NCBI RefSeq assembly: GCF_018595675.2
Contig: NZ_CP092333.1
Coordinates: 1 to 64,000, forward strand
Direction: 5' to 3'
DNA length: 64,000 nucleotides
Source: Flavihumibacter fluvii
Lineage (GTDB): Bacteria; Bacteroidota; Bacteroidia; Chitinophagales; Chitinophagaceae
This document shows positions 15,091 to 63,527 of this stretch, in pieces; the first letter of the stretch is position 1, and every line of letters starts with the position of its first letter. The notes beneath the pieces are model-generated. The model was not told the origin of the DNA. It did no database searches and worked only from the letters and a program-made list of their open reading frames with translations. Made by a program: the position numbers and the translations under genes.

Positions 15091-15106
15091 TTATAAACAT
15101 CAACAT

Positions 15107-15772: not shown

Positions 15773-15797
15773 TTGTTCATTTATAAATCTGGCAAAT

Positions 15798-45598: not shown

Positions 45599-45630
45599 TG
45601 CGAAACCCTTTATTAATAAAGGGTTTCGCA
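45599..45630. terminator. Perfect 32-nt palindrome between convergent transcripts
   Basis: Arms TGCGAAACCCTTTATT and AATAAAGGGTTTCGCA are exact reverse complements. It lies 50 bp beyond the end of the last molybdenum-cofactor gene and about 190 bp after the serine hydrolase, so it is best read as a two-way terminator. It lacks a T-run beyond the stem, so another role is not excluded. Confidence 0.6.
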
Positions 45631-45680: not shown

Positions 45681-46592
45681 TCAATTATGCCGCAAGCCTT
45701 CAGCTACTTTAAATACATGTAACACGTGCGGGAAAAGCGCATCCATGGTTTCTTCTGAGCCCCGGGGTGAACCGGGCATGGTTAATACCAGCATATCACC
45801 AACAAAGCCTGCAATACCGCGGGATAGCATAGCATAAGGCATGCGTTGCTGGCCATAATGGCGTGCTGTTTCCATAATACCTGGGATTTCACGGTCTATC
45901 AATGGGGCAATGGCATCCGGGGTGAGGTCGCGGGGTGACAGACCGGTTCCGCCCGCAAAGATGGCCAGCCTGAAACCTGCTGCAGACAATTCTTTTACTT
46001 TCTCCTGGATGGTGCTGAAATCATCAGGGATAGCCAGGTGTTGGTGTGGAACAATTTTATAATCATTGAGTTTTCGGGCAATCCTTTCGCCGGTAAAATC
46101 TTCATTGATTCCTGCAGCAACACTATCAGAGCAAATGATCACAGCTGTTTTTACCATATCGGGATACGCATACTTCAAATCAGATTTACCGCCTTTTTTT
46201 TCCTGTAACCTGATGGTGGAAATTTCGATGCCTTTATCCAATGGTTTCAACATATCATACATAGTTAATGCCACAACTGAGGCGCCATGCATGGCTTCAA
46301 CTTCCACACCTGTTTTGTAAATGGTATGTACTTCTACCGTGATGAGGATTGTGAGTCCTTCAATCTTATGGCTAATGGCCGCATATTCGATGGGCAATGG
46401 ATGGCAATCCGGGATGACATCACTTGTTTTTTTTATGGCCAATAATCCTGCGGCGCGGGAAAATTCAAAGACATCCCCTTTCGGAACTTTTCGTTGTTCA
46501 ATGGCGTCTATGGTGGCTTGGGCAGACACTTTTACAGTAGCAGTGGCTATTGCCTGCCGTAAGCTGGGTGATTTATGGGTGATATTAACCAT
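45681..46592 (-). CDS. moaCB: MoaC-MoaB bifunctional molybdenum cofactor protein
   Basis: A 303-aa fusion. The N-terminal MoaC (about 1-150) has CHPLPI, EVEAMHGASVVALTMYDMLK and GGKS, and makes cyclic pyranopterin monophosphate with MoaA. The C-terminal MoaB/MogA domain (about 155-303) has GGTGLSPRDLTPDAI and LTMPGSPRGSEETM, and adenylates molybdopterin. It is the last gene of the cox-Moco unit, 3 bp after MoaE. The fusion puts early and late steps of cofactor synthesis in one chain. Confidence 0.92.
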   Translation of the reverse strand: MVNITHKSPSLRQAIATATVKVSAQATIDAIEQRKVPKGDVFEFSRAAGLLAIKKTSDVIPDCHPLPIEYAAISHKIEGLTILITVEVHTIYKTGVEVEAMHGASVVALTMYDMLKPLDKGIEISTIRLQEKKGGKSDLKYAYPDMVKTAVIICSDSVAAGINEDFTGERIARKLNDYKIVPHQHLAIPDDFSTIQEKVKELSAAGFRLAIFAGGTGLSPRDLTPDAIAPLIDREIPGIMETARHYGQQRMPYAMLSRGIAGFVGDMLVLTMPGSPRGSEETMDALFPHVLHVFKVAEGLRHN

Positions 46593-46595
46593 TCA

Positions 46596-47039
46596 TTATT
46601 TATTTTCTTTCCATTGGTAGGCGGCATTATCAAATATTTCCTTTCCCCAAACCGGCAATTCAGCCTTTAATCGTTCCACCATTTCATTACAGGCATCAAT
46701 GGCTGGTTTTCGATGCGCTGAAGAAGTAAATACAAATAAACAGATCTCGCCAGCCTGCACAGCACCCAGGCTATGGTAAACATGTGCACAGGAGAGGGGG
46801 TATTTTGCAAAGATGGCTTCCCGGATCTCGTGCATTTTTTCAAGTGCCATTTCTTCGTAGGTAGTGTATTCTATTGCGGCTACCTTCTTCCCTTCAATGA
46901 GGTCGGCCCTTACCTGGCCCAGGAATATACTGTGCCCCCCGATATCCTGCCGGCTGCTGTGTTTCTGGATACTGTCGGCTATAAAGCCGGCACTAATGGC
47001 ACCTTGTACAAATATATTCTTAGGTTTCCTGGGTTCCAT
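46596..47039 (-). CDS. moaE: Molybdopterin synthase catalytic subunit MoaE
   Basis: A 147-aa subunit that transfers sulfur from thiocarboxylated MoaD to precursor Z. It has the conserved FTSSAHRKPAIDACNEMVERLKAELPVWGKE, with the catalytic lysines in the last part. It follows MoeB by 1 bp, so translation is coupled. Partner: MoaD (48155-48397). Confidence 0.92.
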   Translation of the reverse strand: MEPRKPKNIFVQGAISAGFIADSIQKHSSRQDIGGHSIFLGQVRADLIEGKKVAAIEYTTYEEMALEKMHEIREAIFAKYPLSCAHVYHSLGAVQAGEICLFVFTSSAHRKPAIDACNEMVERLKAELPVWGKEIFDNAAYQWKENK

Positions 47040-47040
47040 A

Positions 47041-48153
47041 TTATTCGTTTGTTGGTGATTGATAGTTTATCAATCCACCTTGTAAACTAAAAATGTTTTT
47101 GACCGGTCCATTGATGGCCTTTAACCAATTTGCAGCCTGCAGGCTTCTTTTGCCGGATTGGCATATAAACACAATGGTTTCTGCCCGCAATCCTGATAAT
47201 TTTTCCCTGATTAAAGATAATGGAAGCTTTTCATGGGTAAATGCAGTGATTGCCGGTGATTCTCCAGGTTCGCGTACATCAATAACCCTTACATTTTGTT
47301 GCCTGAGAAGCTCGTTAAATGCCGGTCCACTGATCTCCAGATCATCAGGCATTGTGCCACATAGCCATTCGTAATTGGTTTGTTCGAATTCATTGATATC
47401 GGCAGGTAAAAATGTTTTTGATGCCTGGGTTGGCGTTATATCCAGTTCATATGCCTGGTTTGTTAAGACATTAAAATTGTACAGGCGATTGACCAGCACA
47501 TCGCCAATTCCCGTAATGAGTTTAATGGTTTCATTTGCCTGCATAGTACCAATTAGCCCGGGTAAAACACCCAGTACACCTGATTCTGCGCAATTTAAAA
47601 CCTCGCCTGCTTTTGGTGGCTGGGGAAATATGTCGCGGTAATTAGCACTAGCCGGACCTTCATTGAATACAGCCACCTGGCCTTCGTATTGAGAAACTGC
47701 GCCATATATTAATGGTTTTTCCATTAAGGCGCAGGCGTCATTGATCATATACCTTGTGGCGAAATTGTCTGTCCCGTCAATAATGATATCAAATTGGGAA
47801 AATATCCTGATGCAGTTGGCAGGGTCTATCCGCTCAGTATAGGTAATTAAATGGAGCTGGTCGTTGAGCGCTTTCAATCTATGCGCCGCACATACCGCCT
47901 TGGGATGGCCAATATCTTCCATCGTGTATAATACCTGCCGGTGCAGGTTGCTTAAGGTTACCCGGTCGAAATCAATTATCCCAAGTGTTCCTACACCTGC
48001 TCCTGCCAGGTATAATAGTGCCGGGCAACCGAGCCCGCCTGCCCCAACCACCAATACCTTTGCCTGCCCCAGTTTTTGCTGGGCAGTTTCACCAAATCCC
48101 TTGAGGATCATCTGCCTTTGGTATCGTTCTGTTATGTTCTCTTTGCTGGACAT
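47041..48153 (-). CDS. moeB: MoeB-type adenylyltransferase with rhodanese domain
   Basis: A 370-aa protein that activates the C-terminus of MoaD. It has the ATP-binding VVGAGGLGCPALLYLAGAGV and NLHRQVLYTMEDIGHPK segments, zinc cysteines less clear, and a C-terminal rhodanese domain with active-site CQSGKRS. The start chosen is ATG 48153, one base after the MoaD stop, giving MSSKENITERYQRQMIL; an upstream in-frame ATG would overlap MoaD needlessly. The rhodanese fusion suggests that it may also supply the sulfur. Confidence 0.9.
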   Translation of the reverse strand: MSSKENITERYQRQMILKGFGETAQQKLGQAKVLVVGAGGLGCPALLYLAGAGVGTLGIIDFDRVTLSNLHRQVLYTMEDIGHPKAVCAAHRLKALNDQLHLITYTERIDPANCIRIFSQFDIIIDGTDNFATRYMINDACALMEKPLIYGAVSQYEGQVAVFNEGPASANYRDIFPQPPKAGEVLNCAESGVLGVLPGLIGTMQANETIKLITGIGDVLVNRLYNFNVLTNQAYELDITPTQASKTFLPADINEFEQTNYEWLCGTMPDDLEISGPAFNELLRQQNVRVIDVREPGESPAITAFTHEKLPLSLIREKLSGLRAETIVFICQSGKRSLQAANWLKAINGPVKNIFSLQGGLINYQSPTNE

Positions 48154-48154
48154 G

Positions 48155-48397
48155 TTATCCTCCGGAAAATGGTGGTAATAAAGCAATGCTGGATGTTACG
48201 GTTATAGGAATGTTTCCACTGACTAATTTTTTGTCCACGGCGATTACATAGCTCATCCTGGAAAATTCCGGGTAATATTCCAGCAAAAGTTCCCTTAATG
48301 CATTTGCATCATGAACTATTGGCACAGTTAACCTTCCTGTTCCCGTGATATCAGTTAGCTGACCAAATACCAATATGTTTAATTCCTGTTCACTCAT
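48155..48397 (-). CDS. moaD: Molybdopterin synthase sulfur carrier subunit MoaD
   Basis: An 80-aa ubiquitin-like protein ending in the required Gly-Gly (LLPPFSGG), which is adenylated and thiocarboxylated. Its GGA-GGA codons at the end also look like a Shine-Dalgarno sequence 5 nt before the MoeB start. ATGA overlap with the TauE gene upstream. Confidence 0.92.
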   Translation of the reverse strand: MSEQELNILVFGQLTDITGTGRLTVPIVHDANALRELLLEYYPEFSRMSYVIAVDKKLVSGNIPITVTSSIALLPPFSGG

Positions 48398-49131
48398 GCA
48401 GATGTAAATAATAATTTAAAGGCCGCAACACTCAACGCACTAGCCAGAATAAATTTCAGGACTTCCTGTTTAAACTTTTGCGATCCCAGCCACGCACCTA
48501 TTAGCCCGCCCGAAAAAGCAATCAATACCATCAGGATCATATCACTGCTAAAATGAATGCCTTTGGTCAACTGGCCAAATAGCCCGGACAACGAATTTAC
48601 GAAAATGAATAAGGCACTGATAGCTGCAGTTTGTTTTTGATTGGTCCATTTTAACAATATTAATACAGGTGATAAGATAATGCCGCCGCCAATTCCGATC
48701 ATGCCGGATAATAATCCGATCAGACCCCCAAAAAGCAGGGAAATGGCAAAATTCGGACTTTTTAAATCCACAACTTCTGTATTCCTGAAAAAGATAAAGC
48801 GGATAATGGGAATCAGTAAAAGTATTCCTAGTATTTTTTTATATACTATAGCATCAATATTGATTAATCCACCAACAAAAGCCATGGGTATGGAAGCGAG
48901 CGCGAGCGGAAAAAATATTTTCCAGTTAAAATGTTTTCCCCGGTAAAACTGGATGAATGAAGTAAGTGACACGAAAAGATTCAGTAACAAGGCAGTGGGT
49001 TTCATCACTTCGGGTGCAAAGCCATAAATGGCCATTAAAGCAAGATAACCGCTGGCGCCGCCATGCCCAACGGATGCGTATAAAAATGCCACAGTAAACA
49101 GGAGCAGGCAAAAGATCAGGGTGAAATCCAT
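48394..49131 (-). CDS. TauE/SafE-family membrane transporter
   Basis: A 245-aa protein with about seven or eight TM helices of the sulfite exporter TauE/SafE family, with the two repeats LLLFTVAFLYASVGHGGASG and LIGLLSGMIGIGGGIILSPV (the GxGGG motif typical of the family). It lies between MoeA and MoaD, so a role in sulfur or molybdate-related anion transport is suggested by position only. No ATP-binding partner is present. Confidence 0.85.
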   Translation of the reverse strand: MDFTLIFCLLLFTVAFLYASVGHGGASGYLALMAIYGFAPEVMKPTALLLNLFVSLTSFIQFYRGKHFNWKIFFPLALASIPMAFVGGLINIDAIVYKKILGILLLIPIIRFIFFRNTEVVDLKSPNFAISLLFGGLIGLLSGMIGIGGGIILSPVLILLKWTNQKQTAAISALFIFVNSLSGLFGQLTKGIHFSSDMILMVLIAFSGGLIGAWLGSQKFKQEVLKFILASALSVAAFKLLFTSA

Positions 49132-49139
49132 AGACTATA

Positions 49140-50324
49140 TTAAATCGGTAGGCGATGTATTTCTACCAGATCGCCAGCCTGGCATTCAGTACTATTTTCA
49201 GGAATCACAATAAGGCAATTCGCTTTAGCAAATGAATTGAGTTTATATGATTCCTGGCCATCCAATGAAAGTACAGTTTCTCCCAATAATAATCCTTTCA
49301 AAAAATGGGTAATACCGGCTGGTTTTTTATAAGGCCCGGCCAGTGGTACAAACTGTTGATGCAGGGTGATTGGGCTGTTTTGTAGAATACAGATGGCTTC
49401 CAACACATATTCATAAAAACAGGTCAGTACAGAAGCCGGATTTCCGGGCAAGCCAAATACTAATTTTTTGCCTTTCCGGGCAAACAAAATTGGTTTCCCG
49501 GGTTTCTGTCTGATCTTATGGAATATCGTTTCAACTTCACATAACATCGCTGCTTTCAGCGTAAAATCATAGTCGCCAACACTGATGCCGCCCGTCAATA
49601 AAACAATATCGCTGTTTTCCAGGCAATGGGCAAGGGTTTTAGCCAGTGCATCCAATTGGTCTTCTACCCGATAGACAATGGGCAGGGGAATGGACAATTG
49701 TTCCAATGCTGCTTTAAGTGAAAGGGAGTTTGATTCATATACCTGGCCATAGGACAGTGGGTTACCTGGCGTTTGCAATTCATTGCCGGTAACGATGATG
49801 CTTACTTTTGGTGATGGATATATGCTGATCTCTGTCAGGCCTATACCTGCAAGAAAACCAATAGCAGCGGGTGTCAGCAGGGTACCTTTTTCAAGCGCCA
49901 GGGCACCTTTACTGATTTCGGAACCGGTTGGACGAACATTGTCCCCCGTTTTCAGCAGGGGGTCTTCTATGATGACCTGGTCATCCTCAACCCTGCATTT
50001 TTCCTGCATCACAACAGTATCGGCACCAGGCGGAACAGGCGCCCCGGTGAAAATACGAACAGCCTTTCCTTTAGGGAGTTCGATCTGGTCTCCGCGGCCG
50101 GCGGCTATTTCGCCGAACAGGTCCAATTCTCCGGATGCCTTCCAATCTTTAAACAAAAGCGCATAACCATCCATGGAAGACTGCGGGTAGGCAGGTATAT
50201 CTATTGGCGCAACAATATCTTCGGCCAGTGTTTTTCCCGCCGCCAATGCTAATGCTGCCTGGACCGGTGTAAGTGGGTTACTGTTTTTCCTGATGAATTC
50301 TTTAGCTTCGGAAACTGATATCAT
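49140..50324 (-). CDS. moeA: Molybdopterin molybdenumtransferase MoeA
   Basis: A 394-aa enzyme inserting molybdate into adenylated molybdopterin. It has the SMDGYALL segment, the GGISVGDYDF motif and FGLPGNPASVLTCFYEYV, all typical of MoeA. It lies 11 bp after the TonB receptor gene and 8 bp before TauE, inside the Moco run. Confidence 0.92.
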   Translation of the reverse strand: MISVSEAKEFIRKNSNPLTPVQAALALAAGKTLAEDIVAPIDIPAYPQSSMDGYALLFKDWKASGELDLFGEIAAGRGDQIELPKGKAVRIFTGAPVPPGADTVVMQEKCRVEDDQVIIEDPLLKTGDNVRPTGSEISKGALALEKGTLLTPAAIGFLAGIGLTEISIYPSPKVSIIVTGNELQTPGNPLSYGQVYESNSLSLKAALEQLSIPLPIVYRVEDQLDALAKTLAHCLENSDIVLLTGGISVGDYDFTLKAAMLCEVETIFHKIRQKPGKPILFARKGKKLVFGLPGNPASVLTCFYEYVLEAICILQNSPITLHQQFVPLAGPYKKPAGITHFLKGLLLGETVLSLDGQESYKLNSFAKANCLIVIPENSTECQAGDLVEIHRLPI

Positions 50325-50335
50325 ATTGTTTTTTC

Positions 50336-52894
50336 TTATAGTCCCCAGGTGGCAGTAAGATAATACATGCCTCCGATTGATGGCCCCCCCAATATAGAAT
50401 AATAATACTTGTTCGTAATATTACTGCCACCTAATTTTAGCCGGAATGGTGATTTAGCGAAACGGTAACTGATGTGCATATCAAACGCAGTGGTGGCCGG
50501 CACGTCGCCGTTGATCAGGAAAGATTGCCAGTAATACTCGCTTTGCCACCGGAAACTGACACCTGCACCAAATTGTTTGTATATTTTTTCATTGGCAATG
50601 GATGTAAAGTACATCCATTCTGGCGTATTGAAGCCATCTTCCAATCCATCCTCCCCTTTAGCTTTGTGCAATTTGGCATAGGTGGTATGTGCAGTAACCA
50701 AATATCCCTTATTAAGTTTCCATTGCAACCCGATACTTCCACCGTATTGGTATACTGATGTTTTTGAATTGGTCCACATGCGGTATTGGTCCTGCTTCGT
50801 ATTGTCGGCTAAATAATAGGGAATGGAATCGGGTGTATCCGTTTTGGGCACATTCATATTGGCCTGGGCAATAAAGGACCTGTATTTGTTCATGTAAATT
50901 TCTATGTCCAGCAATAATTTTCCATTGGCCATACCTCTTTTGTATCCGGCATCAAAAGACTGTACATGTTCAGGCTGGATATAGGTGTATGGATTTTTTA
51001 CCAGTAATTCCTTGTTTTTTTCAATAGCGGCCGGCCTTGATATTCCGCCTTGGTTAACATCTTTTAAGATAGCCGATTGGAAAGCAGCAATGGAGGTCTG
51101 CAACCAGGCATTCTCAAATATTCCGTCCGACATTACGGGTAATCCACCAACACGTTTTACCCCACCGCTATTTACATTGGAAAAAGCTTCAAACAAAATC
51201 GGGTACCGATATCCTGCCTGGTATGACATCCGGATACTCTGTGAAGCTGAAGGCGCATAAACTACAGTTACACGTGGATTAAACAATACCTGGTAATAGT
51301 CATTTTTATCGGCCCTGCCTGCAGCACCCAGCCGGAGCTTTCCGGCGAAAAAATTCCGGTTAACAGAAAGGAAAACACCTGTTCTGCTATACACAATATT
51401 CTTGCCTTCCTTACCTGCTGCAGGATTCATGAAATAATTGCCATCGGGCACTACAAAATAACTTCGATGATCCCCACCTGCCAGCAATTCCAGTCCTGTT
51501 TTTTCCTTCCATTTCCTTAGCCAGCTATCGGTAAGGTTTAGTTGCATTTCTGCGTGGATAAAGCTGGCTTTTACTTTCAGGGCGGCTCCCTGGTCCCAGT
51601 TGTTGATCTGTTGTAATTGTCCAAGTACATCATTAAATGCACTGGTTCCCGGTTCATACCGGCCATTGTCTGCAAATTGCCTGGCCTGTCTGTGTGCGTT
51701 AACAGCATCTGCGCCATTCTGTTGCGCCTGGTTGTAACCGGTAGTATAATCTGCAAACCAGGTTTTGTCGGTTTTGTAATTCCGGTCTATATTTTCAGCC
51801 ATGGATCGAAGGTTGTAGGAGTTGCCGGTATTTTCATTATTCAGGTAAACCCTTGCCTGCAAGGCTTTGGATTGGTAGGTGAGGGCGTGTTGCTGCAAAA
51901 AATAATCAGTCAGCCGGAACCGGTTAGCCCGCTGGTAAATATTGTCCAGGACGGCAAAACGGAATGTATAAGAAAATTTATCCCCTTTACTGTTCTGGTA
52001 GAAAATCCCGGCGTCTGCTTTTATATTCTGAAGGGTATATTCAGTTACTTCCATTTCTGTATAACCGGTCCTTGCAACAACATATGATTTGCCGTCCAGG
52101 GTCAGCGTCTTCCGGTTCGATGATTCATTCCCATAACTGTTCACCGGGTTCAGTGCCGGATTCTCGGTACCGAATAACTGGGTACTGGAATTTGCATCAG
52201 GATTGATGTCCTGGTAATTATCAGCCATCCAGTCATAACCTTTTGTAAAGGTTCCGTTGAAACGAAGTGCCCAGTTAGTGTTGAGTTTTTTTACATACCG
52301 CAGGCTGGTTTCAGAAAATAATTTAGCGCTGGAATTGGCATCACCAAGGTGGGTAACTGCAGTTTTTTGCTGTACGCTCAAACCTTCTGATTGAAAGGGA
52401 TCCCTGCTGTTGAATTGCGCCAATCCATTTACGGTATTCATCCCATACAGGGCAGACGACATGCCTGGTATAATTTCCACACTTTCAATGTCGAGGTCTC
52501 CCGGCCCAAGGACATTACCTATCGGACTGCCTATATGTGGTGATTGTATATCCATTCCATCTACCAATTGGGTAAAGCGCACATTGGTCGTATTAGCGAA
52601 ACCGCGGGTGTTCACGATACGAAAGCCCAAACTGGGTGTGATCATTTGGACACCTTTGATATTTTCAAGGGCGTCAAAAAAAGACGGGGCTGAGCTATTT
52701 GTAAAAAAGACGCGGCCAGCTTTTTGGATACTTACTGGGCTGCGTAAAATATTTTCCGGTAACCTTGACGCAGTGACGACAACTTCATTTAGCAAAGTGC
52801 TGTGAAATGTATCCGTGGTTGGTTTTGCTTCATTATTCTGACCAAATGTTATACGTCCAATGAGCAATATAAATATGGCCAAATAAATTCTCAT
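50336..52894 (-). CDS. TonB-dependent outer membrane receptor in the Moco run
   Basis: An 852-aa receptor with a Sec signal peptide (AIFILLIGRITFGQ), a TonB-box-like LNEVVVTASRLPENI, plug domain motifs (RGFANTTNVRFTQLVDGMD), and a long beta-barrel ending in aromatic GGMYYLTATWGL. It lacks the carboxypeptidase-like N-terminal domain of SusC. It overlaps MoaA by ATGA and precedes MoeA by 11 bp, so it is co-translated with cofactor genes. Uptake of a Mo, W or Cu chelate is plausible but unproven. Confidence 0.9.
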   Translation of the reverse strand: MRIYLAIFILLIGRITFGQNNEAKPTTDTFHSTLLNEVVVTASRLPENILRSPVSIQKAGRVFFTNSSAPSFFDALENIKGVQMITPSLGFRIVNTRGFANTTNVRFTQLVDGMDIQSPHIGSPIGNVLGPGDLDIESVEIIPGMSSALYGMNTVNGLAQFNSRDPFQSEGLSVQQKTAVTHLGDANSSAKLFSETSLRYVKKLNTNWALRFNGTFTKGYDWMADNYQDINPDANSSTQLFGTENPALNPVNSYGNESSNRKTLTLDGKSYVVARTGYTEMEVTEYTLQNIKADAGIFYQNSKGDKFSYTFRFAVLDNIYQRANRFRLTDYFLQQHALTYQSKALQARVYLNNENTGNSYNLRSMAENIDRNYKTDKTWFADYTTGYNQAQQNGADAVNAHRQARQFADNGRYEPGTSAFNDVLGQLQQINNWDQGAALKVKASFIHAEMQLNLTDSWLRKWKEKTGLELLAGGDHRSYFVVPDGNYFMNPAAGKEGKNIVYSRTGVFLSVNRNFFAGKLRLGAAGRADKNDYYQVLFNPRVTVVYAPSASQSIRMSYQAGYRYPILFEAFSNVNSGGVKRVGGLPVMSDGIFENAWLQTSIAAFQSAILKDVNQGGISRPAAIEKNKELLVKNPYTYIQPEHVQSFDAGYKRGMANGKLLLDIEIYMNKYRSFIAQANMNVPKTDTPDSIPYYLADNTKQDQYRMWTNSKTSVYQYGGSIGLQWKLNKGYLVTAHTTYAKLHKAKGEDGLEDGFNTPEWMYFTSIANEKIYKQFGAGVSFRWQSEYYWQSFLINGDVPATTAFDMHISYRFAKSPFRLKLGGSNITNKYYYSILGGPSIGGMYYLTATWGL

Positions 52895-53880
52895 CCTCCA
52901 ATAGTTATCATCGACCTGTTATGAATTTCTTCTACGTGGATATTTTCGAAATCTGTGGTAAATTGGCCACCCAGCTCCTTTACCTTTGCCCGGATATTTG
53001 CCTGAATGAGCGGCAATATTTCAACGCCCTGCCTTAATGGACCCAGCAGGTCTGTTTCATGTTCTGAGAAGAGACAGTTCTTGATCTTGCCATCTGCCGT
53101 AAGGCGGATCCTGTTGCAGCTTCCACAGAAATTGGCGCTCATGGTGCTGATTACCGCGAATGTCCCGGCATGGCCCGGAACAATATATTTTTTGGCAGTA
53201 TCATGGGGTTCACCGGCTAGTGGAAGGATATCAAAACGTTCTCCGACAACCGATAAAATATCCTGCCAGGTTACCACTTTATTACTTGTCCAGCGATTTC
53301 CGCTAAATGGCATGAATTCAATAAACCGTACGTGCACAGGCTCGTTTTTTGTCCAGTTGACAAAGTCATTGATTTCAATGTCGTTCATGCCTTTCATTAC
53401 CACAACATTCACTTTTACATGAAATCCTTCCTTTAGCAAAAGGTGGATATTGTCGTAAACCCGTTTGAATTGGTCGCGCCTGGTGACTAACATAAATTTG
53501 TCGCGGTCCAGGGTGTCGAGGCTAATATTTAAAGACTTTATACCCGCCTCTTTCAGCAGGTTAATGAATTCATGGATACGGGTGCCATTAGTGGTCATGG
53601 TCAGGTTCACCGGCAATTGGGATAAGGAAAGAATAACTTCAGCAGCATCCTTCCTCACCAGGGGTTCTCCACCCGTAAGTCGGATTTTATTCACACCCTG
53701 TTCAACAAATATTTTGGCGATAGCGCTGATCTCATGGGTTTGCATCAGCCTGCTTACTGGTGTAAAATCATAGTCTTCTTCGGGCATGCAGTAAAAACAA
53801 CGCAGGTTGCAATTATCGGTCAGGGATATCCTGAGGTAATTGTGCACCCTGTTAAACGTATCTACTAGTTTGTTTTCCAT
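52891..53880 (-). CDS. moaA: GTP 3',8-cyclase MoaA
   Basis: A 329-aa radical SAM enzyme. The N-terminal cluster is CNLRCFYC (SAM motif CxxxCxxC), the C-terminal cluster has NFCGSCNRIRLTADGKIKNC, and the chain ends in ITIGG, the C-terminal Gly-Gly that members need. The true start is ATG 53880, overlapping MocA by 16 bp; a longer in-frame run upstream is a MocA shadow. Confidence 0.94.
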   Translation of the reverse strand: MENKLVDTFNRVHNYLRISLTDNCNLRCFYCMPEEDYDFTPVSRLMQTHEISAIAKIFVEQGVNKIRLTGGEPLVRKDAAEVILSLSQLPVNLTMTTNGTRIHEFINLLKEAGIKSLNISLDTLDRDKFMLVTRRDQFKRVYDNIHLLLKEGFHVKVNVVVMKGMNDIEINDFVNWTKNEPVHVRFIEFMPFSGNRWTSNKVVTWQDILSVVGERFDILPLAGEPHDTAKKYIVPGHAGTFAVISTMSANFCGSCNRIRLTADGKIKNCLFSEHETDLLGPLRQGVEILPLIQANIRAKVKELGGQFTTDFENIHVEEIHNRSMITIGG

Positions 53881-54494: not shown

Positions 54495-55648
54495 TTGATT
54501 TTTTTTTCGGTGATTTGTGTTTGCTGCCGGGCATGGATTACTTCTTCGCGGAGTCTTAACGATAGACTGCTTTTGCCGGCCATGATGGCTTTGATTTCAG
54601 CAATAATGGATAAAGCGATCTCCTCAGCCGTCTCACCGCCGAGATCCAGTCCCACAGGGCCATACACCCTGCTGAGTTGTTCTTCAGAAAGCGTGATACC
54701 TTCCGCCTGCATGTCCCCCAGCATGCGATCGAGTTTTTTCCTGGGGCCCAGTACCCCGATATATGGCACATGGGTTTTTACCAGGGCCTTCAGCATGGCG
54801 AGGTCATAATTATAGTTATGGGTCATGAGGACAAAGGCAGTTTGATCATCGATGGCCATTTGTTCAAGTACATTTTCAGGTTTGGATACCAGCACCTGGC
54901 AGGCACTGGCAAAACGTTCCCTTTTAGCATGGGTTGGTCGTCCGTCTACCACATTACTTTCCCAGCCCAGGGTATCAGCTATGGCCACCACCGGCATCAC
55001 ATCATTGCCGGCGCCAACGATCACCAGGGAAATGGATGGGGGTACGTATTCTATAAATGCCGTGATATTTTGGTCATGCCATATGTACTGCCTGAAGGAA
55101 GATTTTTTTTGCGCAAAAGCCAGGGCAACATCTTCAAGCATGGCTGCTAGCAATAATTCATCACCGGGCTGTCCACTCACGCTTCCATCCTGTTCCACCA
55201 GCAGGCAGGTGCCTGCCTGGCTGCTTTTTTTATGCTCCAGTGAAAATCCGGTTACCAGCACAAACTCCTGGCGTTTGGCGGTAGCTTTTCGTAATAATTC
55301 AATAGGATTATCCGGATGTGCAGGCAGGATAGGTTCCATCAGCACCTGGATCACTCCGGCACAACCTAGCTGTACACCAATTGTTGCATCATCTTCATCG
55401 CTGGTATCATAGGTGACGAGCCTGGATTGTTGCTGGGCCAGTACCAGCAAGGCTTTACGAAGGGCATCGCCTTCCAGGCAACCACCGCTTATCGCGCCGG
55501 TCATCTGGCCATCATCTGATACCAGCATCCGGGCACCGGGCCTGCGATAAGAAGATCCTTCAAGGTGAACTACCGTAACCAATGCGGATTTTTGCCCATT
55601 TTTGCGGGTGGCATCATACGCATTTATGATGGTTTTAATTTCTTTCAT
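54491..55648 (-). CDS. XdhC/CoxI-family maturation protein (second copy)
   Basis: A 385-aa XdhC/CoxI-type protein, thought to carry Moco and help sulfurate or insert it into molybdo-hydroxylases. It has SGGCLEGDALRKALL near residue 55 and a Rossmann-like SLVIVGAGNDVMPVVAIA later, then EEIALSIIAEIKAIM at the end. Its start overlaps the YHS-fused XdhC by ATGA. It has two Cys in the GCLEG/GCAG regions that could bind metal or sulfur. Confidence 0.87.
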   Translation of the reverse strand: MKEIKTIINAYDATRKNGQKSALVTVVHLEGSSYRRPGARMLVSDDGQMTGAISGGCLEGDALRKALLVLAQQQSRLVTYDTSDEDDATIGVQLGCAGVIQVLMEPILPAHPDNPIELLRKATAKRQEFVLVTGFSLEHKKSSQAGTCLLVEQDGSVSGQPGDELLLAAMLEDVALAFAQKKSSFRQYIWHDQNITAFIEYVPPSISLVIVGAGNDVMPVVAIADTLGWESNVVDGRPTHAKRERFASACQVLVSKPENVLEQMAIDDQTAFVLMTHNYNYDLAMLKALVKTHVPYIGVLGPRKKLDRMLGDMQAEGITLSEEQLSRVYGPVGLDLGGETAEEIALSIIAEIKAIMAGKSSLSLRLREEVIHARQQTQITEKKIN

Positions 55649-56643
55649 GGCATCAGGCCTTTGGCTTTGTTCATATATTTCTCAGGCTCCAGTTCAAATT
55701 TAACCTTACATCCATCACAACAGAAATACACTTTTTCGTTGTTGTATTCGATGATATGTTTTGGATTATTGATATCTACGGGTACACCGCAAACCGGGTT
55801 AATATAGAATTTGGGTTTGCCGGCTTCCTGGCGGGTTTCATCGAACTTGCTGAAGCCTGCCGTTCCAGGTAACTCACTTTTTACAGCAATGACCTCAGCC
55901 AGGATACTGATTGCTACTTCTTCCGGTGTTTTTGCATTGATATCAATTCCTGCGGGAGACCTTATTGCAGAAATGGCAGTTTCGTTGAGTCCGGCATTCT
56001 TCAGGTAATCCATCACCGTCAGGCCTTTTTTACGGCTTGAAACAAACCCAATATAGCCATGTTCCTTACCAAGTGCCTGTTCCAGTGCAGGTTCATCCTG
56101 GTCGCCTTGTGTTGCAACGACGATACAGGTTGATGGACCGGTATTCACCTGGTCGAGGTTATAACGCGTGATCAGTTCATCGGGCTTTTCGAAAGTGTCG
56201 ATTTTGGCATCAGGCGCCACGGCGGTCACTTTAAATCCGCTTGCCTTGCCCAGTTTGACCAGTGCTTTGGCGATCGCTGTTTTCCCCATCACCACAAGGT
56301 GGGGAAGAGGTAAAATGGGTTCAATAAAAACTTCTACAGTGCCTTCACTCTGGCAGGTCATTTTATATTCCATAACAGATTCCTGTTGGGTATTTTGTAT
56401 GGATTGGCCGATCCGCACCAGCCTCGGTTTGCCGGATTTCATGGCGTCTTCAGATTCTTTTATGATAATTGCCCGCACACAACCACCGCCAACCCAGCCA
56501 ATAATATCGCCGAATTTATCCACGATGGCTTTATCGCCGGTTTTGCCGCTACTGGGTGCATCTCTTCGCACCACGATGGCAATCGCAAAGGGTTCCTGCT
56601 TTTTCCGCAGTTCCTGGCTTTTATCTAAAAATTGGTCAAGCAT
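55645..56643 (-). CDS. XdhC/CoxI-family protein with C-terminal YHS domain
   Basis: A 332-aa fusion. Residues 1-260 are XdhC-like (VGGGCVRAIIIKESEDAM; AISILAEVIAVK). Residues 281-326 are a YHS metal-binding domain: Cys285, then CCDGC at 308-312, as found in copper ATPases. The YHS domain may deliver copper for the [CuSMoO2] active site (inference). Overlaps CoxE by 8 bp. Confidence 0.88.
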   Translation of the reverse strand: MLDQFLDKSQELRKKQEPFAIAIVVRRDAPSSGKTGDKAIVDKFGDIIGWVGGGCVRAIIIKESEDAMKSGKPRLVRIGQSIQNTQQESVMEYKMTCQSEGTVEVFIEPILPLPHLVVMGKTAIAKALVKLGKASGFKVTAVAPDAKIDTFEKPDELITRYNLDQVNTGPSTCIVVATQGDQDEPALEQALGKEHGYIGFVSSRKKGLTVMDYLKNAGLNETAISAIRSPAGIDINAKTPEEVAISILAEVIAVKSELPGTAGFSKFDETRQEAGKPKFYINPVCGVPVDINNPKHIIEYNNEKVYFCCDGCKVKFELEPEKYMNKAKGLMP

Positions 56644-57775: not shown

Positions 57776-57793
57776 GGGACTAACTTAATACGA

Positions 57794-58675
57794 TCAGTTC
57801 ACAAATGCGCCCATTCCTTCCGTCCTGATCAGCGAAATGTCTTCTGCCGATTTCAGGATACTACCCAGTGATACATTAAATGCGGCTTCATTGATTTCAC
57901 GGTATCCCAGGGCCATTAAAGATTCAGCCCAATCGATGGTTTCTGAAACGCCTGGTGTCTTCACCAGTTTTCGCATCCTGAATTGTTGTGCTGCGTGCAC
58001 TACCTGCCCTAATAGTTTTCCCTCAATTGCGGGCAAGCGCTTGCGTACAATCTGCATCTCCTTGTCCAGGTCAGGGTAATCAATCCAATGGTATAAACAC
58101 CTTCTTTTCAGGGCATCACTTAATTCACGGGTACGGTTAGACGTTAGGATAACATATGGCTTATGTTTTGCCTTAATGGTGCCGATCTCCGGTATGCTGA
58201 TCTGGAAGGCCGATAATAATTCGAGCAAAAAGGCCTCAAACTCTTCGTCGGAACGGTCCAGTTCATCAATCAGCAGAACAGGTGATTGTAACTCCTGGGT
58301 AATAGATTCCAGAAGGGGCCTTTTCAGCAAATAATCGTGCCCGAAAATATGTTTCTCTTTTTCTTCAACACTTAAGCCGCTGTCTTCCTGTAACTTGATA
58401 CCCAATAATTGTTTCTGGTAATTCCATTCATATAATGCGGCATTCACGTCTAATCCTTCATAGCACTGCAGCCGTATTAATTTCGTTTCCAGTAATTGTG
58501 ACAAGGCTAACGCCACTTCCGTTTTTCCTACGCCAGGCGGACCTTCCAGCAGGAGCGGTTTCCGCAGTTTCAATAACAGGAAAAGGGAAGTGGCGAATTC
58601 CTCGTCCACAACATATTGCATTTTGTCAAGCGCTTCAATGATCTGTTCCTGGTTCTCAATTGTATTCACCGGCAT
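57794..58675 (-). CDS. coxD: CoxD-like MoxR AAA+ ATPase
   Basis: A 293-aa AAA+ ATPase with Walker A GPPGVGKT (45-52), Walker B LLIDELD (134-140), and a LTSNRTRELSDALKRRC arginine-finger region, typical of MoxR/CoxD chaperones. It acts with CoxE in maturation of CO dehydrogenase. Its ATG overlaps the CoxG stop by one base (TAATG). Confidence 0.92.
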   Translation of the reverse strand: MPVNTIENQEQIIEALDKMQYVVDEEFATSLFLLLKLRKPLLLEGPPGVGKTEVALALSQLLETKLIRLQCYEGLDVNAALYEWNYQKQLLGIKLQEDSGLSVEEKEKHIFGHDYLLKRPLLESITQELQSPVLLIDELDRSDEEFEAFLLELLSAFQISIPEIGTIKAKHKPYVILTSNRTRELSDALKRRCLYHWIDYPDLDKEMQIVRKRLPAIEGKLLGQVVHAAQQFRMRKLVKTPGVSETIDWAESLMALGYREINEAAFNVSLGSILKSAEDISLIRTEGMGAFVN

Positions 58676-59199
58676 TATTTTTTACCAAACATTCCTTTCA
58701 GCATGCCACCAACCATGGATCCGGCACTCAGTGTATTGTCTACCTGTTCGCCGGCAAGCTGTTTTTTAAAATTATTCACAAACTGGTCAAAGACCTGGTT
58801 GGACACATCATTGATCAGTCTGGAACCGAACTGTGCCATCATGCCGGTTACATTCACTTCCATAGTGACGTTCACATCAGTGCCACCGTCCTTTTCAGAA
58901 AGCTGCCCGTCCATCTTCATGTCTGCGCCACCTTTACCCTTGCTGTCAGTACCAATGCCCTTGAGTGACATTTTCCTGGTCGTTGCATTCCTTTCCAGGA
59001 AAGTGATCAGGCCGTCATACTTGGCTTTGACCGGACCGAACTTTAATTCTACCTCGCCTTTGTAATTATCATTATCCACCGTTTCAGTTAGTGATGCACC
59101 CGGCACACAGGTTACTACCTGTGCCGGGTTCGTGAGGTTGTTCCATACTGCATCGATGGGGAACTCCACGTGGAATGATTTTGTTATGCTCGTTGTCAT
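58675..59199 (-). CDS. coxG: CoxG-family SRPBCC protein
   Basis: A 174-aa START-like (SRPBCC) protein. The N-terminal domain begins FHVEFPIDAVWNNLTNPAQVV and contains CVPGASLTE. The C-terminal hydrophobic-basic tail GSMVGGMLKGMFGKK fits the membrane-recruiting tail of CoxG. CoxG is proposed to tether CO dehydrogenase and pass electrons to the quinone pool. It lies 20 bp after CoxL. Confidence 0.9.
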   Translation of the reverse strand: MTTSITKSFHVEFPIDAVWNNLTNPAQVVTCVPGASLTETVDNDNYKGEVELKFGPVKAKYDGLITFLERNATTRKMSLKGIGTDSKGKGGADMKMDGQLSEKDGGTDVNVTMEVNVTGMMAQFGSRLINDVSNQVFDQFVNNFKKQLAGEQVDNTLSAGSMVGGMLKGMFGKK

Positions 59200-59218
59200 G
59201 ATCTGTTTTTTTTACTGT

Positions 59219-61585
59219 TTAGATGGCTCCCTTGTCTTTTAATGCCTTCCATACCTTGGCTGGTGTGATCGGGATATCCAGGTGGGTAATGCCAAATGGA
59301 CTTAACGCATCTACAATGGCATTGGCTATGGCCGGCGGTGCACCTACAGTTGGTGATTCACCAACACCTTTTGCACCAATAGGATGGTGTGGTGATGGTG
59401 TAATGACGTGTCCGGTTTCCCAGCTGGGTGATTCTACGGCCGTAGGCACCAGGTAGTCCATCAGTGTTCCATTCAGAATATTCCCATCTTCATCATAGAT
59501 CAGTTCTTCATACATGGCCGGTGCAATGCCTTGTGTCAGACCGCCGTGTACCTGTCCCTGTACGATCATGGGATTGATGATATTACCGCAATCGTCGATG
59601 GCTACAAAACGCCGCACATGGATGCCACCGGTTTCCTTGTCAATATCAACCACGCAGATATAAGCACCGGAAGGGAAAGTGAGGTTTGGCGGATCGTAAT
59701 AGTGTGTGGCTTCAAACCCGGCTTCCATGCCCTGTGGGTGATTGGTATAAGATGCAAAAACGATTTCCTGGATGGTCTTTGACTTTTCAGGGGCACCCTT
59801 TACCCAGAATTTTCCTGGTTCCCATTCCAGGTCTTCTTCACTTACTTCAAGCAGGTAGGCTGCAATTTTTCGGGCTTTGGCGACCAGTTTACGGGAGGCC
59901 ATAGCAGCAGCTGCACCAGCCGTTGGCGTACTTCGTGATGCATAGGTTCCTAACCCATAAGGTGCGGTATCTGTATCTCCTTCTTCGATCTGGATATTCT
60001 CTGCCGGGATGCCCAATTCTTCAGCAATGATCTGTGCATAGGTCGTTTCATGGCCTTGTCCCTGTGATTTTGTACCGAAGCGTGCGATGGCCTTACCTGT
60101 CGGGTGCACTCTGATTTCAGCGCTGTCGAACATTTTAATACCGAGGATATCAAAGTCTTTTGACGGGCCAGCACCTACGATTTCTGTAAATGTGGAGAGG
60201 CCAATACCCATCAGCTCACCTTTCTTCCTTTTTTCAGCCTGCTCTTTCCGCAATTCCCAATAGCCAACAGCATCCATCGCTTTCAATAATCCTTTATGGT
60301 AATCCCCGCTATCGTAGATCCAGCCGGTTGGTGATTTCCAGGGGAAGTCTTCTTTCTTGATGAAGTTTTCCATCCTCAGGTCTGCAGGGTCTTTTCCTAT
60401 TTCAAGTGCGAACCTGTCGGTCATGCGTTCGATGGCATGCACTGCTTCGGTAACCCTGAATGAACAACGATAAGCAACACCACCCGGGGGTTTGTTGGTA
60501 TAAACGGCATCGCATTCCATATAGGAGGTGTCGTAATCATAGGAGCCTGTGGCAATGGAGAACATGCCGGTCGGGAATTTGGAAGGATTCGCAGACGCAT
60601 CGGTATACCCATGGTCAGCTAATATTTTGAACCGTGTGGCCAGGATCTTGCCTTCTTTTGTGCCCGCCATTTCTGCGGTAATATGGTAGTCGCGCGCGAA
60701 TGAATCGGCCTGCAGGTTTTCGCTGCGGTCTTCGATCCACTTAACGGGCTTGCCTACCAGGAAGGAAACAGCAATTGCAATTACATAACCAGGATATACG
60801 GGCACTTTACCGCCGAATCCACCCCCGATATCAGGGGAAATAACCCGGATCTTTTCTTCTGTTAATCCAACATGACCTGCCACCAACGCAATAACCGTGC
60901 GAATGGCATGCGGCGCCTGTGTGGTCATATACATCGTAAGGTGGTTATTGATCTTGTCATAATCAGCTACGCAGCCACAGGTTTCGATGGATGCCACATG
61001 TATGCGGGGGATATGCATCTGTTCTTTCACCACTACATCGGCTGATGCGAAAACCGCTTCAGTTTTGGCTTTGTCGCCTGCTTCCCAATGCCAGATATGG
61101 TTATCTGTTTTGCCGGCTTTGTCTGATCTTAAAACGGGGGCGCCAGGATCCATGGATTTGTAAGGATCGATCACGGGTTTCATCTTCTCATAATCAACTT
61201 TCACTGCTTCGCGGCCATCACGTGCAGCATACCTGCTGGTGGCGATCACCGCAGCCACTTCCTGCGCCTGGTACATTACCGTGTCTGTTGGTAAGACCAT
61301 CTGGGTATCAGACATCAGTGTTGGCATCCAGTGGAGGTTGTATTTCTCAAGGTCCCGGCCGGTAACTACTGCCACCACCCCGGGTACTTTCATGGCATCC
61401 TCAATATTGATCTTTTTGATTTTGGCATACGCATATGGACTTCTTACAATATCCATATACAACATACCCGGAAGCTTGATATCATCCACATAATGGCCTT
61501 TACCCTGGATGAAACGGATATCTTCCTTTCTTTTCAGGGAATGGCCCATGCCACCGATTTCCTTTGATGTTTTACACTTATTCAT
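59219..61585 (-). CDS. coxL: Form I aerobic carbon monoxide dehydrogenase, large subunit CoxL
   Basis: A 788-aa molybdo-hydroxylase that oxidises CO to CO2. The AYRCSFR motif (371-377) marks form I, with Cys374 as the expected copper-sulfur ligand; form II would read AYRGAGR. Other Mo-site features are PDIGGGFGGKVPVY (251-264) and a late GAKGVGESPTVGAPP with the catalytic Glu. ATG 61585 (MNKCKTSKEIGGMGHSLKRK) is the start; an upstream in-frame ATG adds a poor extension. Partners: CoxM and CoxS just upstream. Confidence 0.96.
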   Translation of the reverse strand: MNKCKTSKEIGGMGHSLKRKEDIRFIQGKGHYVDDIKLPGMLYMDIVRSPYAYAKIKKINIEDAMKVPGVVAVVTGRDLEKYNLHWMPTLMSDTQMVLPTDTVMYQAQEVAAVIATSRYAARDGREAVKVDYEKMKPVIDPYKSMDPGAPVLRSDKAGKTDNHIWHWEAGDKAKTEAVFASADVVVKEQMHIPRIHVASIETCGCVADYDKINNHLTMYMTTQAPHAIRTVIALVAGHVGLTEEKIRVISPDIGGGFGGKVPVYPGYVIAIAVSFLVGKPVKWIEDRSENLQADSFARDYHITAEMAGTKEGKILATRFKILADHGYTDASANPSKFPTGMFSIATGSYDYDTSYMECDAVYTNKPPGGVAYRCSFRVTEAVHAIERMTDRFALEIGKDPADLRMENFIKKEDFPWKSPTGWIYDSGDYHKGLLKAMDAVGYWELRKEQAEKRKKGELMGIGLSTFTEIVGAGPSKDFDILGIKMFDSAEIRVHPTGKAIARFGTKSQGQGHETTYAQIIAEELGIPAENIQIEEGDTDTAPYGLGTYASRSTPTAGAAAAMASRKLVAKARKIAAYLLEVSEEDLEWEPGKFWVKGAPEKSKTIQEIVFASYTNHPQGMEAGFEATHYYDPPNLTFPSGAYICVVDIDKETGGIHVRRFVAIDDCGNIINPMIVQGQVHGGLTQGIAPAMYEELIYDEDGNILNGTLMDYLVPTAVESPSWETGHVITPSPHHPIGAKGVGESPTVGAPPAIANAIVDALSPFGITHLDIPITPAKVWKALKDKGAI

Positions 61586-61619
61586 AATTATTGATGAATT
61601 AAATCGTTTTAAATGATGT

Positions 61620-62123
61620 TTATACAAATTGCGGTTCGGTGGAAGGCAATTCTTCGCCGCGCATTTTAGCGCCGGCATAAATGATCGCTTTCACGATATT
61701 GTTATACCCGGTACATCGGCAAAGGTTACCTGAAATGCCCCAGCGGATCTCCTCTTCGGTGGGATTGGGATTATTGGCCAGCAATTCTGTTGCGCGCAGG
61801 ATCATGCCCGGCGTACAGAAGCCGCAATGTAGTCCGTGGTTTTCCTTGAATCCTTCCTGAAGCGCAGAAAGTTCCCCATTTACGGCTACCGCTTCGATAG
61901 TGGTAAGCGATTTCCCATTGGCCTGTACTGCCAGGATGGTGCAGGATTTTACCGATTTGCCATCCATTAATATGGTGCATGCGCCGCAACTGGATGTATC
62001 GCAACCAATATGCGTGCCTGTCAGGTTCAGTAGTTCCCTGATCATATGTACCAGTAGTAAACGGGGCTCCACTTCTAAGGTGTGCTTTTCGCCATTAACA
62101 GTTACGGTGATTTCCTTTAGCAT
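61620..62123 (-). CDS. coxS: CO dehydrogenase small [2Fe-2S] subunit CoxS
   Basis: A 167-aa iron-sulfur protein with two [2Fe-2S] clusters: Cys41, Cys46, Cys49 and Cys61 (plant-ferredoxin-like) and Cys100, Cys103, Cys135 and Cys137 (CGFC and CRC). It passes electrons from the Mo site in CoxL to FAD in CoxM. It lies 34 bp before CoxL. Confidence 0.95.
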
Positions 62124-62148
62124 ATATTTTAATGTTTTTCGGTTTTTG

Positions 62149-63021
62149 TTAATTGTTACTGGCCCGGTTGGCTGCTTCGTGGATCATGCGCTTCACCAGC
62201 ACGGCTACCATGGCACGCTTATATTCTTCAGAGCCACGCAGGTCTGCAGAGGGATTACAGTCTTCCGATGCATATTGGGCAGCTTCAGCAATACTGTGTT
62301 CGGTAAGCGGTTTGCCGATAAGTGCTTGTTCGGAACGCACTGCCCGCAATGGTGTCGGGTTCACATTGGTTAATCCGATTCCGGCGGCTTTCACGATGCC
62401 ATCGTCGCCAATGGTAATTTGAACAGCAACTCCTGCTGTAGCATAATCGCCAACTTTCCGTTCCAGCTTGTGGTAAGCACTTCCTGTACCGGACGGTGGA
62501 ACCGGTATCTGGATCTCGGTGAGGATTTCTCCATGTTGAAGGGCTGTCGTATAAAACCCGAAGAAGAATTCATCAATTGGAATTTCCCGGGTGCCTTCAG
62601 CACCTGTTGCAATTACAGTGGCGTTGAGCGCAAGCATTACAGCCGGATGGTCATTGGCTGCATCGCCATGGGCCAGGTTGCCGCCAATGGTGCCACGGTT
62701 GCGCACCTGCGGATCGGCAATCAGCTTGGTGACATCTTTAAAAATGGGGAAGCGTTTAATCAGCAGGTCAGCGTGTTCGATTTCTGCTTCCCTGGCGAGT
62801 CCGCCGATTTTCATCTTGCCGTTTTCTTCAACAATGTGGGTGAGCCCGGGAATGTTATTAATGTCCACCAACACTTCGGGTGTGGCGAACCTTAATTTCA
62901 TCATGGGAATCAGGCTATGACCCCCGGACAGGATCTTTGCCTCATCGCCATACTGGTGTAATAACTGAATTGCTTCTGCTAATGTGCCTGGTGATTCGTA
63001 CTGGAAGGATTGGGGGATCAT
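62149..63021 (-). CDS. coxM: CO dehydrogenase medium FAD subunit CoxM
   Basis: A 290-aa flavoprotein. The FAD-binding motifs are SGGHS (32-36) and TIGGN (111-115), at the same residue numbers as in the Oligotropha enzyme (AGGHS and TIGGN). It is upstream of CoxS and CoxL, the usual M-S-L order of form I cox operons. It starts 12 bp after the Cys-rich membrane protein. Confidence 0.95.
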
Positions 63022-63032
63022 AACTGTTTGAT

Positions 63033-63527
63033 TTATTGCTTGGTCAGAAAATTGTTTGAGCGAAGATTGATGGGCAGGATATGGCTGATTCTTTCAAGCC
63101 AGCGAAACCTTTTCATGTTCATGCCAATGCCCGTAAGTACGATCAGTACACCGGTATAATATAAAACCTGTCCGCCTGCAATGGCCACACTGTAAATGAT
63201 GCAGCAACTGCCTGCAAAGGCAAATGCTAAAGCATACCAGGTCCTTTTATCCTTGAAACTTAGGGCCAGGCTGAGCAAGGTGATAAAACAAAAAAACAAG
63301 GAAATGTATATACTGAGCGGTGAGCTATGGGTTTGGTTAAAAGTTTCATCTCCACCTTTGCCGCAAAGCACGATGGTGCTGGAGAAAGCTAATACACAGA
63401 ATGGACATTTAGGGAGTACTGCCAATAGAATGCCAGCAAGGATTCCTATACTTTTTTTAGGATGCATAGGCGGAGCAGACCCGCCTTTGCAAGGCGAGCA
63501 ATCGTTTACATTTTGAGTGCAGGGCAT
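63033..63527 (-). CDS. Cys-rich small membrane protein heading the cox unit
   Basis: A 164-aa protein from ATG 63527 (MPCTQNVNDC); an earlier in-frame ATG is possible. It has Cys3, Cys10 and Cys13 (CSPC) before the first TM helix, Cys41 and Cys44 (CPFC) at its end, Cys55, and about four TM helices. It resembles MerC-like or CPFC membrane proteins only loosely. Its position 12 bp before CoxM suggests a metal role, such as copper, for the enzyme (inference). Confidence 0.7.
   Translation of the reverse strand: MPCTQNVNDCSPCKGGSAPPMHPKKSIGILAGILLAVLPKCPFCVLAFSSTIVLCGKGGDETFNQTHSSPLSIYISLFFCFITLLSLALSFKDKRTWYALAFAFAGSCCIIYSVAIAGGQVLYYTGVLIVLTGIGMNMKRFRWLERISHILPINLRSNNFLTKQ

Follow-up and report, generated by a model that had tools for sequence, protein, structure and literature searches.

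Can a bacterium encode in one unbroken stretch of DNA all that is needed to build a carbon monoxide (CO) dehydrogenase, including its cofactor? The question is raised by a gene run of Flavihumibacter fluvii (Bacteroidota; Chitinophagaceae), in which genes for a predicted molybdenum-copper CO dehydrogenase and its maturation are followed directly by genes for synthesis of the molybdenum cofactor (Moco). The run lies in a stretch of 64,000 nucleotides, hereafter the window, with which a single contig of 5.0 Mb (NZ_CP092333.1) begins. We consider it quite likely that the run is a self-sufficient CO-oxidation island of two modules, with the roles proposed below. We also lean towards a broader reading, in which a TauE/SafE-family permease would be the molybdate importer in most Moco-making Chitinophagaceae, repeatedly swapped with ModABC, and in which form I CO dehydrogenases that are not of the Oligotropha type would load copper via a CoxF protein with interchangeable YHS or HMA domains, accompanied in Bacteroidia by a cysteine-rich MerC-like partner.

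The run consists of 18 leftward genes that extend without interruption from 63527 to 45681. A first-pass annotation had given the same span, gene order and assignments, which were borne out when Pfam was applied to all 18 proteins, the first gene being a sub-cut-off MerC match. The annotation had spoken of 19 genes, although its own list holds the 18 that we count, and of at least seven stop/start overlaps, of which we find six: coxG/coxD (1 bp), coxE/coxF (8 bp), coxF/xdhC (4 bp), mocA/moaA (16 bp), moaA/tonB (4 bp) and tauE/moaD (4 bp). Its figure of ~35 bp for the largest gap agrees with the 35 bp between xdhC and mocA, the latter with a GTG start. Given a moeB start at the ATG at 48153, moaD and moeB are spaced by a 1-base gap. 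The perfect palindrome said to close the run was located at 45599-45630, and enzyme, maturation and cofactor genes do lie in one unbroken same-strand run. What had been described as most of Moco synthesis is a pathway with a gene for every step. NCBIfam was used for 10 of the 18 proteins, among which CoxL, MoaA and MoaCB scored above curated cut-offs. The closest named record is Flavihumibacter profundi, with a CoxL identity of 99%. The predicted features, with the evidence for each, are as follows:

63033..63527, minus strand: membrane protein resembling MerC, with LPKCPFC motif and a putative role in copper handling (Pfam MerC, under cut-off)
62149..63021, minus strand: coxM, flavin adenine dinucleotide (FAD) subunit (Pfam)
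61620..62123, minus strand: coxS, 2Fe-2S subunit (Pfam)
59219..61585, minus strand: coxL, assigned as form I CO dehydrogenase large subunit, AYRCSFR (TIGR02416, PDB relatives, motif)
58675..59199, minus strand: coxG, proposed membrane anchor (Pfam COXG; role per PMC4240915)
57794..58675, minus strand: coxD, AAA+ ATPase, putative sulfuration factor (Pfam AAA; role per PMC4240915)
56636..57775, minus strand: coxE, VWA protein (Pfam VWA_CoxE)
55645..56643, minus strand: coxF, member of the XdhC family with a YHS domain at its C-terminus (residues 281-326), putative copper donor (Pfam; tree)
54491..55648, minus strand: xdhC, generic Moco sulfuration/insertion chaperone (Pfam; NF045664 best match, under cut-off)
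53865..54455, minus strand: mocA, molybdopterin cytidylyltransferase, GTG start (Pfam; TIGR03310 best match, under cut-off)
52891..53880, minus strand: moaA, sole match in the genome (TIGR02666, above cut-off; single PF06463 match)
50336..52894, minus strand: TonB-dependent outer-membrane receptor (Pfam)
49140..50324, minus strand: moeA (Pfam)
48394..49131, minus strand: TauE/SafE-family permease, candidate molybdate importer (Pfam; near mutual exclusion with ModA)
48155..48397, minus strand: moaD (Pfam ThiS)
47041..48153, minus strand: moeB with rhodanese domain (Pfam)
46596..47039, minus strand: moaE (Pfam)
45681..46592, minus strand: moaC-moaB fusion (NF002947, above cut-off)
45599..45630, no strand: perfect palindrome of 32 bp flanked by convergent genes, which may act as a terminator in both directions (repeat search, folding)

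The two halves of the run recur both apart and joined. The window was compared with 80 named CoxL loci (L numbers denote loci and G numbers genomes), which are the best 80 of 173 confirmed and are biased to close relatives. Among these 81 loci, 12 have moaA no more than 4 kb beyond CoxF; 45 others of sufficient length were scored as having none there (L055 was miscounted among them, as moaA directly follows coxF), 8 are too short and 16 have no CoxF in range. The joined loci besides the window are 11 named ones: L039-L041 (labelled Flavihumibacter), L042 (Flavipsychrobacter), L044, L047 and L058 (Chitinophagaceae), L046 (Chitinophaga), L045 (Sphingobacteriales only), L052 and L054. Ten of the 11 are placed in the window's family, with L042 in its genus. 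The annotation had also said that it knew of no description of such a run in Bacteroidota; coxL itself has been reported in the phylum (PMC6794299, PMC13203968). At E 1e-200, 12 of 294 family genomes, counting the own one, gave a CoxL match; eight of these are joined (G163 as far as moaA, where the contig ends), whereas G045 and G288 are unjoined and G043 and G290 end too soon. In overlapping draws, CoxL was found in 8 of 395 genomes taken across the phylum and in 7 of 146 from the class of G296 (both E 1e-220), which includes a metagenome-assembled genome (MAG) titled Rhodothermaceae and is called the Rhodothermaceae class here.

Eleven of 20 fetched MoaA regions show the order moaA-moeA-tauE-moaD-(moeB)-moaE-moaCB. 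In a twelfth (L145), a hydroxylase set lies between moaA and the remaining Moco genes, and in L133-L136, L139 and L146-L148 the order differs or the sequence is cut. The cox-less congener G179 (L132) shares xdhC-mocA-moaA-moeA-tauE-moaD-moeB-moaE-moaCB with the window but lacks both the cox genes and the TonB receptor gene. One gene downstream of the Moco tails is common to both (62% identity) and the upstream flank of G179 has no match in the window, so that a claim of the same genomic place rests on this single neighbor. Another genome of the genus, G108, gave no MoaA, XdhC or CoxL match. Since the modules recur apart and joined, the joined arrangement appears to be a Chitinophagaceae variant in which two units, each conserved separately, are linked.

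The Moco module appears complete for a cofactor of the molybdopterin cytosine dinucleotide type, with MoaA, MoaC, MoaD, MoaE, MoeB, MoaB/MogA, MoeA and MocA recognized by Pfam and NCBIfam (MocA under the TIGR03310 cut-off). In the whole genome, MoaA has a single match (PF06463) and XdhC has matches in two genes (PF02625), all inside the run. Five further MoCoBD_1 loci (L153-L157) encode proteins with starts resembling the double-arginine (RR) signal of twin-arginine translocation, and a small 2Fe-2S-type protein adjoins four of the five, as judged by motifs that we take to be characteristic. Because the genome's only MoaA and XdhC matches lie in the run, these five loci seem to depend on its Moco half, which would then serve more than CO dehydrogenase. 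One point counts against the island as a self-sufficient unit: of the Moco genes, the whole-genome searches covered MoaA and XdhC, so that second copies of the others may exist. In L155 and L156, a small cytochrome-like gene is found beside the molybdoenzyme.

The TonB receptor gene comes and goes within an otherwise fixed order, even inside the genus; it was not seen in the moaA-moeA interval of F. stibioxidans (L019/L040), L027/L046, L044 or L058. Its product has no match among PDB sequences, and its NCBIfam matches span residues ~7-182 only and are far under cut-off. We infer all activities in the run, and the substrates of this receptor, TauE and the MerC-like protein, from family knowledge or occurrence patterns.

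Is the run also a unit of transcription? From its gaps and overlaps we infer that it may be co-transcribed, and the palindrome at 45599-45630 may terminate it. The inner 30 bases of the palindrome have a single occurrence in the window when up to 3 mismatches are allowed (0.00 expected), and the element folds into a 14-pair hairpin (z -4.37), with no T-run after it. A convincing internal promoter was not found in the run. It is nevertheless quite possible, if somewhat short of probable, that the run is divided into several transcripts, with cox induced by CO or starvation and the Moco genes constitutive from a promoter inside coxF or at xdhC. The main argument for such a second promoter is that a single CO-controlled transcript would place the five other molybdoenzymes, which the Moco genes seem to serve, under the same control; the occurrence of Moco genes without cox in G179 points in the same direction. 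The 4-bp start-stop overlap of coxF and xdhC, which spans the junction, argues against division, as does the promoter scan. The scan used what we take to be the Bacteroidota -7 motif, which was seen three times on the coding strand (7.3 expected), and the motif lies near xdhC in 3 of 12 joined loci (the window, L039 and L040). The copy just before xdhC encodes Lys-Phe-Glu of the YHS domain, in which Phe316 is invariant; because this coding constraint explains the letters, it was discounted as a promoter. Scans for sigma-70 promoters (52 promoter-like sites, 37.7 expected) and for terminators (13 terminator-like sites, 22.0 expected) were set aside.

How copper would reach the enzyme is suggested by CoxF. 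In a tree of 103 rows, 73 CoxF separate from 30 XdhC (100/97), and the characterized CoxF of Afipia is among the 73, although the program warns of long branches there; the XdhC-family protein encoded after CoxE in the window groups with it and is named CoxF on that ground. The closest structures to the CoxF model are the XdhC entries 2we7, 2we8 and 3on5. A YHS motif was found in the XdhC protein at the CoxF position in 59 of 60 unselected Bacteroidota-type loci (L111, L112, L113 and L116, which bear other titles, were set aside), and the exception, L062, is cut by a contig end. Across all loci, distinct full CoxF carry YHS in 64 cases, HMA in seven (six by motif, L165 by Pfam) and neither in four, namely L111 and L112 (Deltaproteobacteria titles), Afipia and one piece of the split L044 gene. 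In L044 (14203-15058), coxF is split over two frames in a MAG contig, which may be an assembly error. HMA, a domain best known from copper proteins, was found by Pfam in all three scanned CoxF of the Rhodothermaceae class and by motif in four other distinct ones; in the tree, the HMA rows group as a single clade next to the Bacteroidota YHS clade (L165 is labelled 'none' there). Pfam also detected YHS in CoxF of Thermomicrobium, Natronorubrum and Paraburkholderia, with Deinococcus just under cut-off. Neither domain was found in generic XdhC proteins, with 0 of 58 distinct ones by motif and 0 of 18 by Pfam (the window's and 17 longer than 290 aa, out of 64 full rows). In an alignment of the window's CoxF with 46 of 58 listed, Pfam YHS matched 47 of 47 rows, which confirms the motif only, since the rows were picked by it. 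Cysteines 55, 97, 285, 308, 309 and 312 are invariant in this alignment, and 285, 308 and 312 belonged to the picking motif.

In Oligotropha, coxE and coxF mutants make CO dehydrogenase without copper, and CoxF was proposed as supplier (PMC4240915). A YHS domain has been found to turn on a cyclase in response to copper but not to any of six other metal ions (PMC4626032). No paper with both XdhC and YHS was found in the literature collection searched. It is fairly probable, in our judgment, that CoxF with YHS or HMA is the copper donor for the Mo-Cu site. We find it doubtful that the YHS domain instead senses or stores another metal or is structural, with the MerC-like protein a toxic-metal exporter or redox partner. 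This alternative draws on the general placement of YHS among the TRASH metal domains (PMC4626032), on the replacement of the first proposed ligand by Asn, and on a Foldseek search in which the MerC-like model had no structural relative (best E 2.3); the proposed supply role of CoxF (PMC4240915) and the presence of HMA, an unrelated domain, at the same place in the Rhodothermaceae class speak for copper donation. Several observations weigh against copper donation all the same. The first of the four proposed copper ligands is Asp in the YHS domain of PMC4626032 and Asn (N282) in the window. Alphaproteobacterial CoxF lack both YHS and HMA in Afipia, Shinella and Roseivivax (Pfam) and in Bradyrhizobium (motif), so copper insertion does not in general require the domain. 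The window's MerC-like protein fails the curated cut-off of Pfam MerC (21.3 vs 27.6 bits), and 12 of the 71 named loci with coverage gave no MerC-like gene.

In the other 59 of these 71 loci, the MerC-like gene was found directly upstream of coxM or ~1.2-1.7 kb off with one or two genes between (56 by tblastn; L065, L077 and L109 by motif). Pfam MerC matched 11 of 46 homologues at E 0.01. KCxxC with a third Cys downstream is present in 55 of the 56 tblastn homologues, the exception being an 86-residue fragment. K40, C41 and C44 are invariant in an alignment of 46 rows (the window and 45 MerC-like proteins), which is partly built in, as rows were picked by a KCxxC-type motif. The model shows about four membrane-length helices, with a mean predicted local distance difference test (pLDDT) score of 73.7, and gave nothing at E 0.001 against PDB structures. 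Among the HMA-class cox regions listed, the four with upstream sequence (L161, L163, L165 and L167) showed no MerC-like gene. The MerC-like protein may transport copper. In L079 (7077-8425), L051 and L068, the MerC-like gene is separated from coxM by a gene for a ~360-aa protein with sialidase-like repeats, recognized by eye, which in L079 is preceded by one for a small MoaD-like protein.

Molybdate import is the second role to be filled. The 294 family genomes were searched for MoaA, ModA and the run's TauE. Among the 140 with MoaA, 109 have TauE only, 27 ModA only, one both (G141) and three neither (G043, G120 and G248, with listed completeness of 83, 78 and 65%). In the 154 without MoaA, TauE was found in four and ModA in one. 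The ModA count used the curated cut-off (29 genomes above it, 20 weaker ones left out), and the TauE line of E 1e-30 was chosen after viewing the list. The exclusion of TauE and ModA has a Fisher p of 2e-24 with genomes treated as independent; a safer indication is that each of five genera (g45, g71, g18, g88 and g35) contains both TauE-type and ModA-type genomes. Where a genome has both, TauE and MoaA are no more than 15 kb apart in 84 of 110 cases. In 20 of 25 fetched Moco regions with TauE (two loci counted twice), its gene shares the strand of moeA, at most ~110 bases off, and of moaD, at most ~560 off. Neither a ModA match nor a ModB match above cut-off was obtained in the own genome; two adjacent ModB matches far under cut-off are probably other ATP-binding cassette permeases.

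The run's TauE is probably a molybdate importer, as its occurrence with Moco genes in place of ModA suggests, apart from the exceptions G141, G005, G176 and G228. In a published precedent, a Pseudomonas TauE homologue restores uptake of sulfate, a tetrahedral dianion (PMC11535334); no molybdate role for TauE was found among the matches listed in our literature searches. Sulfite export and sulfate import are both known among named TauE/TSUP relatives (PMC11535334, PMC5840216), and the run's TauE might likewise handle sulfur, by sulfite export or by sulfate import for the dithiolene and Mo sulfuration, its link to Moco being a need for sulfur. We regard this as unlikely, as it fails to explain the loss of TauE where ModA is present, even within five genera. 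Other points tell against molybdate import by TauE: G141 carries both transporters, the ModA genomes G005, G176 and G228 have a weaker TauE (E 1e-27 to 1e-29) and would count as 'both' at 1e-10, and TauE of G163 sits on a different contig. Moreover, two own-genome proteins (543 and 554 aa), perhaps SulP, are borderline matches to MFS_MOT1, one at the cut-off line and one under, and could carry molybdate. As a molybdate importer, TauE would share its role with ModABC, from which it differs in being a single membrane protein.

As judged by its sequence, the CoxL of the window is a form I CO dehydrogenase. The AYXCSFR motif and the order coxM-coxS-coxL, by which form I is recognized, are both present; AYRCSFR, one of the form I motifs in PMC13203968, is shared by the window and all 80 named loci. 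CoxL scored 1228 bits against TIGR02416 (cut-off 991), and its closest solved relatives are the CO dehydrogenases 8uem, 1ffu and 1n5w. An aldehyde- or purine-type hydroxylase misread as CO dehydrogenase, conceivable from the common superfamily and with CO uptake a prediction from genes, is very improbable given the copper-binding Cys of AYRCSFR, the coxMSL order, the TIGR02416 score far above cut-off and a CO dehydrogenase as top PDB match. The core order merC-M-S-L-G-D-E-F is recurrent in Bacteroidota loci, with exceptions such as L103, L104 and L106, where coxG is elsewhere. In L106, the cox cluster is interrupted between coxD and coxE by two divergent molybdenum hydroxylase genes (coxL- and coxS-like; 13874-16000) on the opposite strand. 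In L112 (14511-19945; Deltaproteobacteria title), a second coxD/E/S set follows a cysteine-desulfurase-like gene and a small gene.

In the mechanism that we propose, module 1 (63527-55645) would provide the form I Mo-Cu enzyme CoxMSL, its membrane link CoxG and the maturation proteins CoxD, CoxE and CoxF. The YHS domain of CoxF would be the copper-holding part, fed perhaps by the MerC-like protein. Module 2 (55648-45681) would be a Moco operon with the genome's only MoaA, in which MoaA and MoaC form the precursor, MoaD, MoaE and MoeB convert it to molybdopterin, and MoaB adenylates the latter. Molybdate imported by TauE would be the source of the Mo that MoeA inserts; MocA would add cytidine monophosphate (CMP), and XdhC would pass on the sulfurated cofactor. 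The electrons of CO probably enter respiration.

The value of the finding lies in two testable proposals, molybdate import by TauE and copper donation by CoxF with YHS or HMA. A CoxF with a YHS or HMA domain of its own, a part that the CoxF of the model organism lacks, is accessible to point mutants. A TauE-type molybdate importer, if true, would add a transporter class and alter the naming of TauE genes that stand next to Moco genes. As a further use, the joined run could provide a cassette for heterologous production of CO dehydrogenase.

Among known systems, the form I cluster on plasmid pHCG3 of Afipia (Oligotropha) carboxidovorans resembles the window in its coxMSL order, in its CoxD/E/F/G-type genes and in having an XdhC-type CoxF together with a second XdhC protein. 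It differs in that CoxF is 280 aa long without YHS, CoxG comes after CoxF, CoxL is 58% identical to that of the window, and no moa or moe gene is annotated in the 26 kb read, for which the PLSDB annotation is incomplete. Plasmid-borne form I loci of Natronorubrum and Paraburkholderia resemble the window in that an XdhC protein with YHS adjoins cox. Near cox, both have a nucleotidyltransferase-family gene (possibly mocA), beside which moeA is found in Natronorubrum. Unlike the window, with its full pathway, these plasmids have isolated Moco genes annotated near cox.

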